Of a DNA stretch of 6,166 nucleotides, positions 1-6,166 are shown piece by piece. Below the pieces are notes generated by a model. The model made no database searches, was not told where the DNA came from, and was given only the letters and a program-made list of their open reading frames with translations. A program made the position numbers and the translations under genes. Numbering within the stretch: position 1 is the first letter of the stretch; each line of letters starts with the position of its first letter. This stretch comes from Desulfofustis sp. (lineage in GTDB: Bacteria; Desulfobacterota; Desulfobulbia; Desulfobulbales; Desulfocapsaceae). The stretch is from the NCBI GenBank assembly GCA_029287755.1, contig JARFQM010000192.1, positions 1 through 6,166 of the forward strand, written 5' to 3'.

Positions 1-600
1 TTTCATCCAAACGAAGAGCCGCTGCTGCAGGGCACCCTCGGTTTTCATATAAAGATAGATGGAGCCGTGCATGGCGAGCAGGGCGACGGTAAACAGCCCC
101 ACAGCGAGACTGAAGCCGCTGACCAGATCGAGCATCGAGCCAAGGAAATCACCCCGCTCGGAAATCGCCAGCCCCTGCATCAGCGCCCCTACGGCGACTC
201 CGAACAGCAAGGCGGCCAGGGTCGAGCCGGCGAAAAAGAGAATATCCCAAAAGGTGCGCCAGGCCGGATTGGTCCGCTTGGACCTGAACTCGAGCGAAAC
301 CGCCCGGAAAATCAAAGCGAAGAGCAAGAGCACGAAAGGCAGGTAAAAGGCGCTGAAAATCGAGGCGTAGGCCTCTGGGAACATCGCAAAAAGCGCACCG
401 CCGAAGGTGACCAGCCAGACTTCATTGCCGTCCCAGAGCGGACCGATGCTGTTCATCACCAAGCGCCGCTCGGTGTCGTCTTTGGCCACGAACGGGTGCA
501 GAAACCCGACTCCCAGGTCAAAGCCGTCCAGGATCGCATAGCCAATCAGCAGGACGTTGAGCAGGATAAACCAGATGATGCACAATAATTCGTAACTCAT
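1..600 (-). CDS. cydB: Cytochrome bd ubiquinol oxidase subunit II (CydB), C-terminus cut by window edge
   Basis: Reading the minus strand from the ATG at 598-600 gives 200 codons with no stop before the window edge, so this is the N-terminal part of a protein usually about 335-380 residues long. CydB is the second integral membrane subunit of cytochrome bd oxidase, which oxidises quinol and reduces oxygen to water at the inner membrane. Seen in the sequence: a first membrane segment (about residues 5-24) leading into DGFDLGVG (25-32), the DDTERRLVMNSIGPLWDGNEVW block (41-62) that is a family hallmark, GGALFAMFPEAYA (67-79), and FRAVSLEFRSK (98-108). At least four hydrophobic segments are present. 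It starts 19 bp after the cydA stop, with GAGAGGAG ending 6 nt before the ATG, so the two genes should be co-transcribed. The FRAVSLEFRSK style and the short segment after residue 145 differ from E. coli CydB, which I take as lineage variation. No frameshift is visible in the part present. Confidence 0.96.
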   Translation of the reverse strand, partial: MSYELLCIIWFILLNVLLIGYAILDGFDLGVGFLHPFVAKDDTERRLVMNSIGPLWDGNEVWLVTFGGALFAMFPEAYASIFSAFYLPFVLLLFALIFRAVSLEFRSKRTNPAWRTFWDILFFAGSTLAALLFGVAVGALMQGLAISERGDFLGSMLDLVSGFSLAVGLFTVALLAMHGSIYLYMKTEGALQQRLFVWMK

Positions 601-606
601 TTTATT

Positions 607-614
607 CTCCTCTC
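607..614 (-). promoter_or_regulatory. Ribosome binding site of cydB
   Basis: On the minus strand GAGAGGAG lies 6 nt before the cydB ATG, inside the 19-bp cydA-cydB gap. It fixes the cydB start and implies independent initiation rather than overlap coupling. Confidence 0.85.
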
Positions 615-619
615 ACATG

Positions 620-2146
620 CTAAGACTGGCTGAGCCGAGCGTGCTGTCGTTCGGACGAGGCATCCTGAAAGCCGTGCTCGGTCCCGTCTTCCGTCATCTC
701 AAACTCCTCTGGGCCCTGGCGGATCTTGCGGTCAAGCACAAAGATCCAGACCGCGGCCAGGCTGAGGTAGAGAAGGGTGAACAGAATCAGCGAGGTGGCC
801 GCTTCCTGGGCATTGACCGATGGACTTACCGCATTGACGGTGCGCAGCCCCTCACGCTCGTCATATTCGTAGAAACCGTCTGCACCGACCAGCAGATCAC
901 TGCCGTCCTCGCTCCACTCTATGGGCGGGTGGACGATCCAGGGTTGGCGGCCGACTTCGGCGCCAATCCAGCCGGCCTGATTGGAGGCCATGACCAGGCC
1001 GATGCCGAATACGAAGCACCACAGCAGCCAACGCTTGTCAGCCAGGGTTCGGCGCCAGTTGAAATAGAGCCCCAGGACGCTGGCGATGATCATCAGACCG
1101 CCGACGCCGACCATGACGCGCCAGCTCAGGTAGGAGAGCAGCAGCGGCGGACGGTCCTCCGGTCGAAAGCGGTCGAGGCCGACAACCGGCTTGGAAAAGG
1201 TGAGGTCATCAAACACCATGAAGCTCAACCCTCCGGGGATGCTGATATCGAAATCGATGCGCTCCTCCTCGGCGTTGGGCCAGCCGATCAGGTTGAGATC
1301 GGCCCGGCCGGTGTCGAAATGGGCCTCGAAGCTGGCCAGTTTCGCCGGTTGGTAACGGTACACGTTCTGGGCCTGGGTATGCCCGTTCAAGGCCAGGCCG
1401 AGCGAAGAGAGCAGAGCCAGCACCAGGGCGCCGTTGATCGAGTGGCGGGCAAATTCCCGGTGCCGGTTTTGTAACACGAAATAAGCGGACACACTGAGCA
1501 CGAAGAAAGCGCCGACCGCGAAGCAGCCCAGCAGAACATGGCTCAAGCGCTGTACGGTGGAGGGGTTGAACACCAGGTCAAGAAAATTGACGATTTCAGC
1601 GCGGCGCTGCACCACCCCGTCGATAACCCAGGGTACCATGCCGGAACCGCCGTCACGCATGATGTCGACAACGTGATGGCCGGCCGGGGTCTGCTGCCAG
1701 CTGTTGGCCACGACGATCCAGATCGAGGAGAACACCGAACCGAGGGCGACCATGTAGACGCTGAACAGATAGAATCCCCGGCTTACCCGCTGCCGGCCGA
1801 AGGCGACCACTGCGAGAAACCCGGATTCAAGAAAGAAGGCGAAGATGCCCTCGGCGGCCAGGGCGCTGCCGAAGACATCGCCGACGAAGCGGGAGTAGGT
1901 CGCCCAGTTGGTACCGAACTGGAATTCCATAACGATGCCGCTGGCCACGCCGATGCCGAAGTTGAGCACGAATATTTTCATCCAAAACTGGCAGGCGGCG
2001 GCGAAGACCGGTTTGCGGGTGAGATAGTAGCGCGTTTCCAAATAAGCGAGGATGACTCCGAGACCGATGGTCAGGGGCGGAAAAATGTAGTGGAACATTA
2101 CGGTGAAGGCAAACTGCAGCCTGGACAATAAAATGACCGTATCCAT
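620..2146 (-). CDS. cydA: Cytochrome bd ubiquinol oxidase subunit I (CydA), short Q-loop type
   Basis: This 508-residue membrane protein is the haem-carrying subunit of the bd-type quinol oxidase. By alignment from memory to E. coli CydA the key residues are all present: His19 (haem b595/d side), Glu99 and Glu107 (proton path), His203 and Met345 (haem b558 ligands, E. coli His186 and Met393), Arg343, Lys269 and Glu274 in QPAKLASFEA (quinol site, E. coli Lys252 and Glu257), and Glu397/Arg400 in the AEVGRQPW block (396-403). The distance from Glu274 to Arg343 is 69 residues, against about 134 in E. coli, so this is a short Q-loop enzyme. The frame stays open upstream to 2296, but I chose the ATG at 2144-2146: GAGGAG lies 7 nt before it and the protein then begins at the conserved SRLQFAFTVMFHY helix, while the extra 50 residues look like translated leader. 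Odd point: about 27 mostly acidic and polar residues (406-432) are inserted after GRQPWIV. cydB follows 19 bp downstream. Identity is essentially certain. Confidence 0.98.
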   Translation of the reverse strand: MDTVILLSRLQFAFTVMFHYIFPPLTIGLGVILAYLETRYYLTRKPVFAAACQFWMKIFVLNFGIGVASGIVMEFQFGTNWATYSRFVGDVFGSALAAEGIFAFFLESGFLAVVAFGRQRVSRGFYLFSVYMVALGSVFSSIWIVVANSWQQTPAGHHVVDIMRDGGSGMVPWVIDGVVQRRAEIVNFLDLVFNPSTVQRLSHVLLGCFAVGAFFVLSVSAYFVLQNRHREFARHSINGALVLALLSSLGLALNGHTQAQNVYRYQPAKLASFEAHFDTGRADLNLIGWPNAEEERIDFDISIPGGLSFMVFDDLTFSKPVVGLDRFRPEDRPPLLLSYLSWRVMVGVGGLMIIASVLGLYFNWRRTLADKRWLLWCFVFGIGLVMASNQAGWIGAEVGRQPWIVHPPIEWSEDGSDLLVGADGFYEYDEREGLRTVNAVSPSVNAQEAATSLILFTLLYLSLAAVWIFVLDRKIRQGPEEFEMTEDGTEHGFQDASSERQHARLSQS

Positions 2147-2153
2147 CAGTTGA

Positions 2154-2159
2154 CTCCTC
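2154..2159 (-). promoter_or_regulatory. Ribosome binding site of cydA (decides the start)
   Basis: GAGGAG on the minus strand sits 7 nt before the ATG at 2144-2146. No comparable site precedes the upstream in-frame ATG at 2294-2296, so this site supports the 508-residue CydA over a 558-residue version. Confidence 0.85.
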
Positions 2160-2249
2160 GAATTCTCTATTTCATGAATGTGGAAACTGAGCCGACGGGT
2201 ACACAGGTTGCCGCCGCTGGACAAGTCTCCCCGGTATACCCATGGTGTA

Positions 2250-2278
2250 AATAAAACCGAAATCCGCTCTTTTGTCAG
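2250..2278 (-). promoter_or_regulatory. Candidate sigma70-like promoter of cydAB
   Basis: On the minus strand CTGACA (2273-2278, five of six matches to TTGACA) is followed after 17 bp by TTTATT (2250-2255, four of six matches to TATAAT). It would start transcription near 2243 and leave a leader of about 100 nt before cydA. I see no convincing FNR-type TTGAT-N4-ATCAA site in the 2147-2349 gap. The same gap must also hold the promoter for the divergent gene at 2350, for which I find no good plus-strand match. Assignment is by inspection only. Confidence 0.4.
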
Positions 2279-2349
2279 GCGAAAATGCGCTGACACTCCC
2301 GGGGGCAGGCCTTAAGGTGTTGAAACCGTATGCAATCTGTGAGAAATGA

Positions 2350-2757
2350 ATGGTCCGTTTAGAGCACAATAGAATGGTCATAAGTTTGGCCATTCGCTGC
2401 ACCGCAGAGGACGCCTGGAAACTGCTCACCGATACTCAGCAGTGGCCGCGCTGGGGCCCCTCCGTCGCCCGGGTTAGCTGCGCGCAGCGCTTCATCGGTC
2501 CCGATTCGGAGGGCAGAGTAAAAACCTCGCTTGGCTTCTGGGTCCCGTTCGCCATTACCGAATACCGTGACCACCAGTTCTGGAGTTGGCGCATCGGCAG
2601 GTTTGCGGCAACCGGTCACCGGATCAGAGTCGAAGATGAGACCGCTTGCGTGGTGGCCTTTGACATGCCCTGGTGGGCGCTGCCGTATCTGCTTGTCTGC
2701 CGGGTTGCGCTGGGCCGGATACGCAGGCTTCTGGAAGCGGGCGAAGATCATTCTTGA
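2350..2757 (+). CDS. SRPBCC (START/Bet v1-like) family protein, ligand unknown
   Basis: A 135-residue soluble protein and the only plus-strand gene in the window. The N-terminal half carries the usual SRPBCC opening: a beta-strand (VISLAIRC, 10-17), AEDAWKLLTDTQQWPRWGPSV (19-39), then RVSCAQRF and a GRVKTSLGFWVPFAITEY stretch (56-72). The fold ends in a long helix (about 111-131), as in polyketide cyclase/dehydrase-like and START-like proteins. These proteins have a deep hydrophobic pocket and bind lipids, polyketides or other small hydrophobic molecules; the ligand cannot be read from sequence. The start is uncertain: ATG at 2350 and ATG at 2374 (residue 9) both have only weak upstream purine stretches, and the shorter 127-residue form still keeps the first strand. 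The gene is divergent from cydA (203 bp between start codons) and convergent with the RND permease gene (21 bp between the genes). Composition resembles its neighbours, so nothing suggests recent transfer. Family assignment is fairly safe; function is not. Confidence 0.8.
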   Translation: MVRLEHNRMVISLAIRCTAEDAWKLLTDTQQWPRWGPSVARVSCAQRFIGPDSEGRVKTSLGFWVPFAITEYRDHQFWSWRIGRFAATGHRIRVEDETACVVAFDMPWWALPYLLVCRVALGRIRRLLEAGEDHS

Positions 2758-2778
2758 AGAAATAATTCAGCCCGGCCT

Positions 2779-5235
2779 TCAGGATGGCCCAGGCATGTTT
2801 GTCCTTTTTTTCTTTTTGACGACGAGCGTCATCAACGCCGGTGCCAGCAGCAAATCGGCGCTCAGGGCCAGAAGCACGGCGCTGCCGGCCAGCAGCCCGA
2901 AATAGAAGAATATGTTCATTTCGGCAAACATGAAGATGAAAAAGCCTAAGGAAAGCACCACGCTGGTGGTCAGCATTGCCCTGCCGGCGGTCATCAGGGT
3001 GTTTTCCACCGCCATGTTCAGATCTCCCGACTGCTGATAGTAGCGCCTGAAATTGTACATGAAATGGATGGTGTCGTCAACGGCGAGGCCAATGACGATC
3101 GAGGCGATAAGCATGGTGATCATGTCGAGATTGATGCCCAGCCAGCCCATGAGTCCAAGCACGGTGATAATCGGGGTGAGATTGGGGATCATGCTGATCA
3201 GCCCCAGCTTCAGGTTGCCGATCAACAGAATCATCATGACGGTGATGACCGCCAGGGCGATACCATAGCTTTGAGCCGCTGAGTAGATGGCTGCGTGGAT
3301 AATCCTGCCAAACAGCGACATGATGCCGGTGGCTGCTACCTGCATGGGTTCGCCGCCTTCCAGCGTCCTGCTGCCAAAGGTATCGGTAAACCTGTCGGTC
3401 ACATCCCTGATGAAAGGGATATAGAGCAGGGCGTCCTGCCAGGGGACTTTGAGCGTGACGCGCGCATAACGATACTGGCTGTCGGTGAGATTGTCGATAT
3501 CGTCTGAGCCGGTATTGGAAAAGAGCAGGAATTCCTGGGGAATCAGCTTTTCGTTGTCGGGTATTTTGTAAAAGGCCGGGTCGTTGTCATGCAGGGCCTG
3601 GTGAATTTCCTTGAGCAGGGTGGTAATGGCCAGCGCCTTGCCGATCGGTACCTCGTGGCTGGCGTAATCGGCCACCAGTTCCGCCATGAGTCGCTCCATA
3701 TCGAGCAGGGTCTCACGGTCGTAAAGTCCGTTTTCCCTGCCGGTGTCGAGCACCATTTCCAGCACCACGGTTCCCTTCAATTCGCGATCCAGCAGCTGTG
3801 TCGCCTGGCGAACGCCCAGCTCCTCTGGCAGCCACTCGAGCCCGTCATGGGAGAACAGCACCCTGGTAACCCCTGTCAGGCCCACTATGACAATGCCAAC
3901 AGCTACTCCCAGTACCAGACGATACCGGGTTATGCTGAAGGCGGCGACAGCGCGCAGAAAACGATCGATGAGGCTATCTCTTGCTGATTTTTCGGGGCCC
4001 CATGGCTTCAGGGGCAGGAGGGAGAGCAGCGCGGGTAAAAAGGTAAAGGTGTAAATAAGTGAAATTCCAACACCGATTGCTGAAAAAACGCCGAGATCAG
4101 CGATCGGAGCAACTTTGGCCATGGAAAAGGATGCCAGACCGGCCGAGGTGGTCAGCGATGTCATGATCAGGGCCGGCCCCGAATGACCATAGGCGGCAAC
4201 TATGGCATCATGGCGAGCCTCTCCATGGCGGATGTTTTGATACGTGAGAGACAGGACATGAATCGAGGCGCCGACGCCGACGGTGAGAATAAAGGAGGGC
4301 AGCATGGTGGTCGGCAATTTGAATGAGACGCCCAGCACAGTCATCAGCCCCACCGTGGAGATCAGCGACAAACCGACGAGCATGAGCGGCAGCAGCACCC
4401 CGCTGGCGCGGCGAAACATCAGAAACAGGCAGCCGCCGATGACCAGCAGTGCCAGTTTCATGAAGGTGAAGGCATCCTTCTGCATGTAATACTTGATTGC
4501 ATGCAGATTGACCGGAGGCCCGGCCGCCGAAATCTGGAAGGCAGGGTCCTGATGACGGGCCACCACCTCATGGACGGCTTCCACAAAGAGATCGTTTTCC
4601 AGATCAGAGAGATAGCGTTGCCCGGGTGAATCACCACCCTCATCATCTTCTTCCACTGGCTCATCGAAACCTGAAAACAGATCACCCTCAGCTTCGCCGC
4701 CGTACACCTGACTCTGCAGAAAAATCGCCGTGTACTTGCCATTTTCCGACACCAGGTTGTTGATATAGAGGGGGTTGCTCAGGACGCGCTCGCGCAGTTC
4801 GGCTGACTCGCCGGGCGTGGCCGGACTGCGGGGCAGCAGGTTGTCGACCAGCAGGGTGTCTCCCTCGCCGCGCACATTTCTGATGTTGATCAAAGAAGTG
4901 ATGTCTTCGAGAAACGGAACGGAATCGAGCAGGTCCTCATGCAGGGCTCTGAGTTTTTCGAGGACCTCGGAGGAATAGAGCGTTTCGCTGTAGACGGCCA
5001 GGACGAGAAAATCGTCCCTGCCGAATTCCTCCCTGAACTGGTTGTAGGTTTTCAGGTAGGGATCGTCGTCATGAAGAAACCCCTCGTTAGAGGTGTCGAA
5101 TGTAAGGTGTTGGAGCTGCCAGCCCAGCAAGGCTGTGCAGAGGAAGACTCCAATCAGCACAGGAATGCGAAAACGCAATACGGCGGTGACAAAAATCTCG
5201 AGATATCGATTCGTGTGTCCATATTGACCAACCAC
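2779..5235 (-). CDS. RND-superfamily permease, MMPL/COG1033-like, 818 residues
   Basis: An inner membrane transporter of the RND superfamily, expected to be driven by the proton gradient; its substrate is unknown, and relatives move lipids, hopanoids or other hydrophobic compounds. The architecture is two repeats. Each has one membrane helix (about 24-41 and 437-460), a large extracytoplasmic domain (about 42-255 and 461-650), then a five-helix bundle (about 257-408 and 654-806), giving 12 helices. The second bundle contains GLAVDDTIHFMYNFRR (716-731), the family's helix 10 signature with the paired Asp720-Asp721. The matching helix 4 reads TVGVGASIHVLSL (318-330) and lacks the acids. Residues 191-202 of the first extracytoplasmic domain form a run of Asp and Glu. 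The start is GTG at 5233-5235 with a weak GGGGGTAAGG upstream; an in-frame stop about 75 nt further up leaves no in-frame ATG alternative. The tail ends in four lysines and an arginine. It lies 148 bp downstream of hupE on the same strand. No adaptor, outer-membrane factor or lipoprotein partner is in the window, which argues against a classical tripartite drug pump. Confidence 0.9.
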   Translation of the reverse strand: MVGQYGHTNRYLEIFVTAVLRFRIPVLIGVFLCTALLGWQLQHLTFDTSNEGFLHDDDPYLKTYNQFREEFGRDDFLVLAVYSETLYSSEVLEKLRALHEDLLDSVPFLEDITSLINIRNVRGEGDTLLVDNLLPRSPATPGESAELRERVLSNPLYINNLVSENGKYTAIFLQSQVYGGEAEGDLFSGFDEPVEEDDEGGDSPGQRYLSDLENDLFVEAVHEVVARHQDPAFQISAAGPPVNLHAIKYYMQKDAFTFMKLALLVIGGCLFLMFRRASGVLLPLMLVGLSLISTVGLMTVLGVSFKLPTTMLPSFILTVGVGASIHVLSLTYQNIRHGEARHDAIVAAYGHSGPALIMTSLTTSAGLASFSMAKVAPIADLGVFSAIGVGISLIYTFTFLPALLSLLPLKPWGPEKSARDSLIDRFLRAVAAFSITRYRLVLGVAVGIVIVGLTGVTRVLFSHDGLEWLPEELGVRQATQLLDRELKGTVVLEMVLDTGRENGLYDRETLLDMERLMAELVADYASHEVPIGKALAITTLLKEIHQALHDNDPAFYKIPDNEKLIPQEFLLFSNTGSDDIDNLTDSQYRYARVTLKVPWQDALLYIPFIRDVTDRFTDTFGSRTLEGGEPMQVAATGIMSLFGRIIHAAIYSAAQSYGIALAVITVMMILLIGNLKLGLISMIPNLTPIITVLGLMGWLGINLDMITMLIASIVIGLAVDDTIHFMYNFRRYYQQSGDLNMAVENTLMTAGRAMLTTSVVLSLGFFIFMFAEMNIFFYFGLLAGSAVLLALSADLLLAPALMTLVVKKKKRTNMPGPS

Positions 5236-5293
5236 TGCCTTACCCCCGTGGTGTGTGTCACTGTTGACGTGGATAGTGACCAGCGCAGAAATC

Positions 5294-5313
5294 GCCGGGC
5301 TTCATTTCCCGGC
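5294..5313 (-). other. Small GC-rich hairpin in the hupE-permease gap
   Basis: GCCGGG and CCCGGC form a perfect 6-bp stem around an 8-nt loop. On the minus strand the stem is followed by GATTTCTG rather than a T-run, so it is not a standard intrinsic terminator. It could modulate read-through from hupE or shape the leader of the permease mRNA, or it may be chance in GC-rich DNA. Confidence 0.3.
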
Positions 5314-5339
5314 TGCCAGCCCCGGAACCGTGCAGAGAT

Positions 5340-5363
5340 TTACCAGGATAATTACCAGAATAA
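5340..5363. repeat. Tandem 12-bp direct repeat between hupE and the permease gene
   Basis: TTACCAGGATAA is followed at once by TTACCAGAATAA, giving 11 of 12 identical positions. The pair lies 21 bp past the hupE stop and about 105 bp before the permease start. Its AT-rich make-up contrasts with the coding DNA around it. A tandem pair spaced by about one helical turn is compatible with a regulator binding site, but I recognise no known operator. A seven-base A-run (T-run on the coding strand) overlaps its end at 5362-5368. Confidence 0.5.
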
Positions 5364-5383
5364 AAAAACAGAGATCAAGGGCC

Positions 5384-5971
5384 TCATAAAATGCCGGAAA
5401 GAAAGCCCATGCCGGCAAGCGATATTATCACTCCGCAGGTGCGCACGGCGATTTTCCCGGCCGGCCAGCGCACCAGCATGCCGATAGCGATACCGGAAAG
5501 GTGCAGCAGGCCAGTGGAGATCACGAAGCCGGCGCTGTAAGCCAGAGGGTTGGCGGCGCCCGGCAGTTCGGTACCATGGGCATGGCCGTGAAAGACGGCG
5601 AACACACCAACAAGAATGGCGGCGACCCAGAGCGGCGGCCGAACCGCGAAAGCGACCATGGCGCCAAGCACTATTGCCGATACGGCTATGCCCGTTTCAA
5701 TGGAGGGGATGGGAATACCCAGGACCCCAAGTGCGCCGCCAAAGGCCATGACCAGAGGAAAGACCACAGGCAGGACCCAGATTGCCGGATTACCCAGAAA
5801 GGCGCCCCAGAGACCCACCGCGACCATGGCGGCCACATGATCCCAGCCCAGGAGGGGATGAGCAAATCCGGCAATAAAGCCTCCGGTAATTCCCCCGCCT
5901 TCATGGGCGTGGGCCACACAGGAGAGAGCTAAAAGAGCACAGGTCATCACCGCTATCCCGCCCTTTTTCAT
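5384..5971 (-). CDS. hupE: HupE/UreJ-family membrane protein (probable metal permease)
   Basis: A 195-residue protein that matches the HupE/UreJ family in length and motifs. Members are often linked to nickel supply for hydrogenase or urease. Seen in the sequence: a signal peptide (positive MKK, hydrophobic core, likely cut after AHA at residue 22) that would leave a mature protein starting HEGGG; the family signature HPLLGWDHVAAMVAVGLWG (38-56) with His38, Asp44 and His45; a second histidine cluster FHGHAHG (127-133); and about six further hydrophobic segments. The His/Asp positions are the likely metal ligands. The start is ATG at 5969-5971, with AGGGAGG 6 nt upstream and a sigma70-like promoter further up. 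The RND permease gene follows 148 bp downstream on the same strand and may be co-transcribed. No hydrogenase, urease or nickel-chaperone gene is present in the window, so the physiological partner is unknown. Family membership is confident; nickel as the substrate is an inference from characterised relatives. Confidence 0.92.
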   Translation of the reverse strand: MKKGGIAVMTCALLALSCVAHAHEGGGITGGFIAGFAHPLLGWDHVAAMVAVGLWGAFLGNPAIWVLPVVFPLVMAFGGALGVLGIPIPSIETGIAVSAIVLGAMVAFAVRPPLWVAAILVGVFAVFHGHAHGTELPGAANPLAYSAGFVISTGLLHLSGIAIGMLVRWPAGKIAVRTCGVIISLAGMGFLSGIL

Positions 5972-5977
5972 TCTGCG

Positions 5978-5984
5978 CCTCCCT
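5978..5984 (-). promoter_or_regulatory. Strong ribosome binding site of hupE
   Basis: AGGGAGG on the minus strand lies 6 nt before the hupE ATG. It is the strongest Shine-Dalgarno match in the window and fixes the start so that the signal peptide is complete. Confidence 0.85.
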
Positions 5985-6047
5985 GAAATCGATTAATCAA
6001 AAAACAATTTACCCAAAAGATTTTGACTGGTTAAGAAAGCTGAGTTC

Positions 6048-6076
6048 ACTATAGACAAGAGTTGAATCAGACGCAA
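6048..6076 (-). promoter_or_regulatory. Candidate sigma70-like promoter of hupE
   Basis: On the minus strand TTGCGT (6071-6076) is followed after exactly 17 bp by TATAGT (6048-6053, five of six matches to TATAAT). Transcription would start near 6041 and give a leader of about 70 nt that ends in the AGGGAGG site. The leader contains a GATTAATC palindrome at 5991-5998, just upstream of the RBS, which could be an operator but matches no site I know. I see no NikR-type or nickel/cobalt riboswitch pattern. Confidence 0.5.
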
Positions 6077-6119
6077 CACCATGATCGCCTGGTGAGAATC
6101 TTGGTAAAACCGCCCTGAC

Positions 6120-6166
6120 CTGTCTCTTATACACATCTCCGAGCCCACGAGACTTAATAGCACATC
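6120..6166 (+). other. Illumina Nextera adapter read-through (artefact, not genomic)
   Basis: Positions 6120-6138 are CTGTCTCTTATACACATCT, the 19-bp Tn5 mosaic end used in Nextera libraries. Positions 6139-6153 are CCGAGCCCACGAGAC, the i7-side adapter. The next ten bases (6154-6163) fit a sample index, and the final ATC (6164-6166) matches the first bases of the P7 tail ATCTCG. The order and length are exactly those of a read running off a short insert. Genomic sequence therefore stops at about 6119 (the C at 6120 could belong to either side). This should not be annotated as a Tn5 or IS50 element. Confidence 0.98.

Follow-up and report, generated by a model that had tools for sequence, protein, structure and literature searches.

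The last 47 bases of a contig assigned to Desulfofustis raise the question of whether they belong to the chromosome at all or were attached to it during sequencing and assembly. We analysed the whole stretch of 6,166 nucleotides in which they lie, hereafter the window. Positions 6120-6166 are almost certainly an untrimmed Nextera adapter read-through that was assembled onto a genomic contig, and thus a technical artefact.

The DNA before the adapter is unremarkable and comes from a Desulfofustis-like genome. It encodes CydB (cut at the window start), CydA, a small Polyketide_cyc2-family protein, an MMPL-family transporter, and a HupE/UreJ family protein (PF04955, E = 1.7e-58), whose gene at 5384-5971 on the minus strand lies closest to the adapter. 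Relatives of all five proteins were encoded together in two Desulfofustis MAGs (L005 and L006), whose DNA was 86% and 82% identical, respectively, to approximately the first 5.2 kb of the window.

Adapter parts and index length

The Tn5 mosaic end was found at 6120-6138 on the plus strand, as the reverse complement that appears when it is read through (CTGTCTCTTATACACATCT, all 19 bases exact). It was followed directly, at 6139-6153 on the same strand, by the i7-side Nextera transposon adapter (CCGAGCCCACGAGAC, all 15 bases exact), and the two exact matches together form the sequence of a Nextera i7-side adapter read-through. They confirmed the original prediction of a mosaic end and an i7-side adapter in library order. 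No other match to the mosaic end was present in the window even when up to three mismatches were allowed, and no match at this threshold arose in any of 200 shuffles. Under a base-composition model covering both strands of the window, the 34-mer made up of the two parts would be expected ~2.6e-17 times by chance. A comparison with the published Nextera adapter had also been proposed, and positions 6120-6153 were identical to the 34-mer that an excerpt of PMC3906532 prints as the sequence to be trimmed from Nextera read 1. Within the window there was no exact match to the i5-side adapter, the TruSeq stem, or the 13-base P5 and P7 prefixes, and Rfam yielded no match to the window at gathering thresholds.

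The final 13 bases of the window are TTAATAGCAC followed by ATC. When the P7 prefix was placed at offsets of 0-12 bases, it fitted without mismatch at offset 10 alone, although this fit covers three bases and would arise by chance in 1 of 64 cases at one offset. Together with their position in library order, this suggests that the ten bases TTAATAGCAC at 6154-6163 (plus strand) are probably a 10-base i7 index and that ATC at 6164-6166 (plus strand) is probably the start of the P7 tail. The ten index-like bases and P7 start that had been predicted are therefore compatible with the sequence, offset 10 being the sole mismatch-free placement, on a basis kept thin by the small number of bases behind the fit.

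The same tail could also be read as this adapter with an index of eight bases (TTAATAGC), the final five bases then being P7 with errors. The 8-base form is plentiful in the viral contigs of IMG/VR, where the adapter, eight bases, and the P7 start occurred together in at least 120 contigs (L085-L204, with 124 matches among those listed). The 10-base form has no example in the viral contigs, since the adapter followed by ten bases and a longer P7 start (ATCTCGTATG) gave no matches there. Our first viral-contig pattern, which demanded ATC at offset 10, returned four matches, which we rejected as support for a 10-base index because they carry 8-base indexes and a P7 start that is one base off; these four indicate that departures from P7 do occur. 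However, an 8-base index in the window costs two mismatches in five bases, compared to none in three bases for the 10-base index, and we consider the shorter form quite unlikely.

If the index has ten bases, as we prefer, it might serve as a readable sample barcode that ties the contig to one library, which we regard as doubtful. The adapter with TTAATAGCAC as its index had no matches in the viral contigs and was carried by none of 395 genomes of the phylum, and a literature search on this 10-mer and its reverse complement surfaced no index list. Were the barcode reading true, disagreement with the record's own sample would expose cross-sample carry-over.

Loss of homology at the adapter

We compared window positions 5300-6119 with five genomes of the same genus (Desulfofustis), of which three matched. 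In one of these genomes (G067), one contig matched window positions 2-5335 at 91%, and a second contig (L207) matched positions 5864-6117, also at 91%. The latter match was ungapped, with 231 of 254 bases identical, and stopped at 6117. One of the two bases at 6118-6119 matched, and from 6120 to 6166 the agreement was 9 of 47, compared to a mean of 11.6 and a maximum of 22 for the other 47-mers of the locus (n = 1401). Genomic homology thus ends at the start of the adapter, and the junction between genomic DNA and adapter lies at 6118-6120. The first 12 bases of the mosaic end had no copy in L207 on either strand, so in the relative the place of the adapter is taken by other DNA. The MAG loci L005 and L006 located the junction less sharply, as their similarity to the window was already fading before it. 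The contig had been predicted to end here for technical reasons, which agrees with a match from a genome of the same genus that stops within two bases of the adapter start and gives way to other DNA. Since the related genome runs on at this point with other DNA, the break after 6119 is uninformative about the chromosome.

The G067 contigs also differed from the window upstream of the junction. Positions 51-368 of L207 (G067:C199) aligned with window positions 5315-6117, but the match skips from 5407 to 5864 over a short shared stretch, and L207 thus lacks most of HupE. This gap could be either a real deletion or an assembly collapse. The match of the first G067 contig ended at 5335.

The order of the parts points to read-through as the route by which the adapter entered the contig. 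In a tagmentation (Nextera-type) library, a read that is longer than its insert would leave the insert on the far side and continue through the mosaic end, the i7-side adapter, and the i7 index to the beginning of P7. Such reads were most likely used without adapter trimming, and the assembler would have extended the genomic contig into the adapter and stopped there, with 6166 as the probable contig end. A tail of 47 bases is what would be left if, to take one case, an insert of 103 bases were sequenced with a read of 150 bases, which is a matter of arithmetic rather than a test. Adapter left at a contig end is a common assembly artefact and carries no biology.

Instead of short-insert read-through, chimeric ligation, PCR, or an assembly join could have connected the adapter to the genomic DNA. 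In two viral contigs (L144 and L193), the adapter, index, and P7 were internal and lay thousands of bases away from the end of the locus, suggesting that joins through the adapter happen. In the window, however, the junction is clean, the parts stand in read-through order, and the adapter runs to the window end at 6120-6166, which makes such a join very improbable and leaves read-through as the preferred route. The mosaic end is derived from the ends of Tn5, and homology breaks off at it, as it would at the terminus of a chromosomal transposon. A real Tn5-family insertion can nevertheless be rejected with hardly any doubt because the mosaic end is followed exactly, from 6139, by synthetic i7-side adapter (as given in the excerpt of PMC3906532) and not by transposon DNA; the mosaic end was also absent from the five genomes of the genus, all of which were among the 257 genomes of the order searched.

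The same adapter in other records

The original prediction also warned that these bases would create false matches. The warning was borne out, as the same adapter was present in public viral, phage, and plasmid records, the listed viral copies lying nearly always at an end. Among phages, 41 records matched; of the 40 listed, several of which are duplicate accessions of one phage, 28 had the match within 200 bases of a record end and 12 had it farther away. Nine plasmid records matched, one within 200 bases of a record end and eight farther away. The listed phage and plasmid matches spanned 29-38 query bases, which correspond to the mosaic end and adapter without the index.

In the order Desulfobulbales, the bare mosaic end was found in 7 of 257 genomes. 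Ten loci from these seven genomes all had the mosaic end 19-35 bases from the locus end, followed by the i5-side adapter (two loci), the i7-side adapter (two), one extra base (two), or nothing (four). The 34-mer was carried by none of the 93 genomes of the family and was absent from both Desulfofustis MAGs (L005 and L006), and the 47 bases had no match in E. coli complete genomes. Another untrimmed end was seen in a HupE-bearing contig of a Haliea MAG (L074), which ends at 4277-4326 in the mosaic end and i5-side adapter. Since the 47 bases match contaminated records of unrelated organisms, they should be trimmed before the contig is used, and their relevance is one of data hygiene only.

Compared to the Nextera XT read-1 read-through adapter in the excerpt of PMC3906532, the window has 34 identical bases followed by an index and a PCR-primer part in the same order. 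The index in the window fits a length of ten bases, whereas eight bases were common in the viral contigs found. The adapter-contaminated viral contigs of IMG/VR carry the same adapter, and its mosaic-end start lay within 120 bases of the locus end in 121 of the 124 listed matches; in the L127 match this distance was 202 bases. The viral tails, from the mosaic-end start to the locus end, were longer (minimum 52 bases) than the 47 bases of the window, a difference partly due to the search pattern, which accepted only matches with ten P7 bases. The commonest viral tail was 76 bases (35 of the 124 listed matches), a length that may reflect the k-mer length of the assembler.
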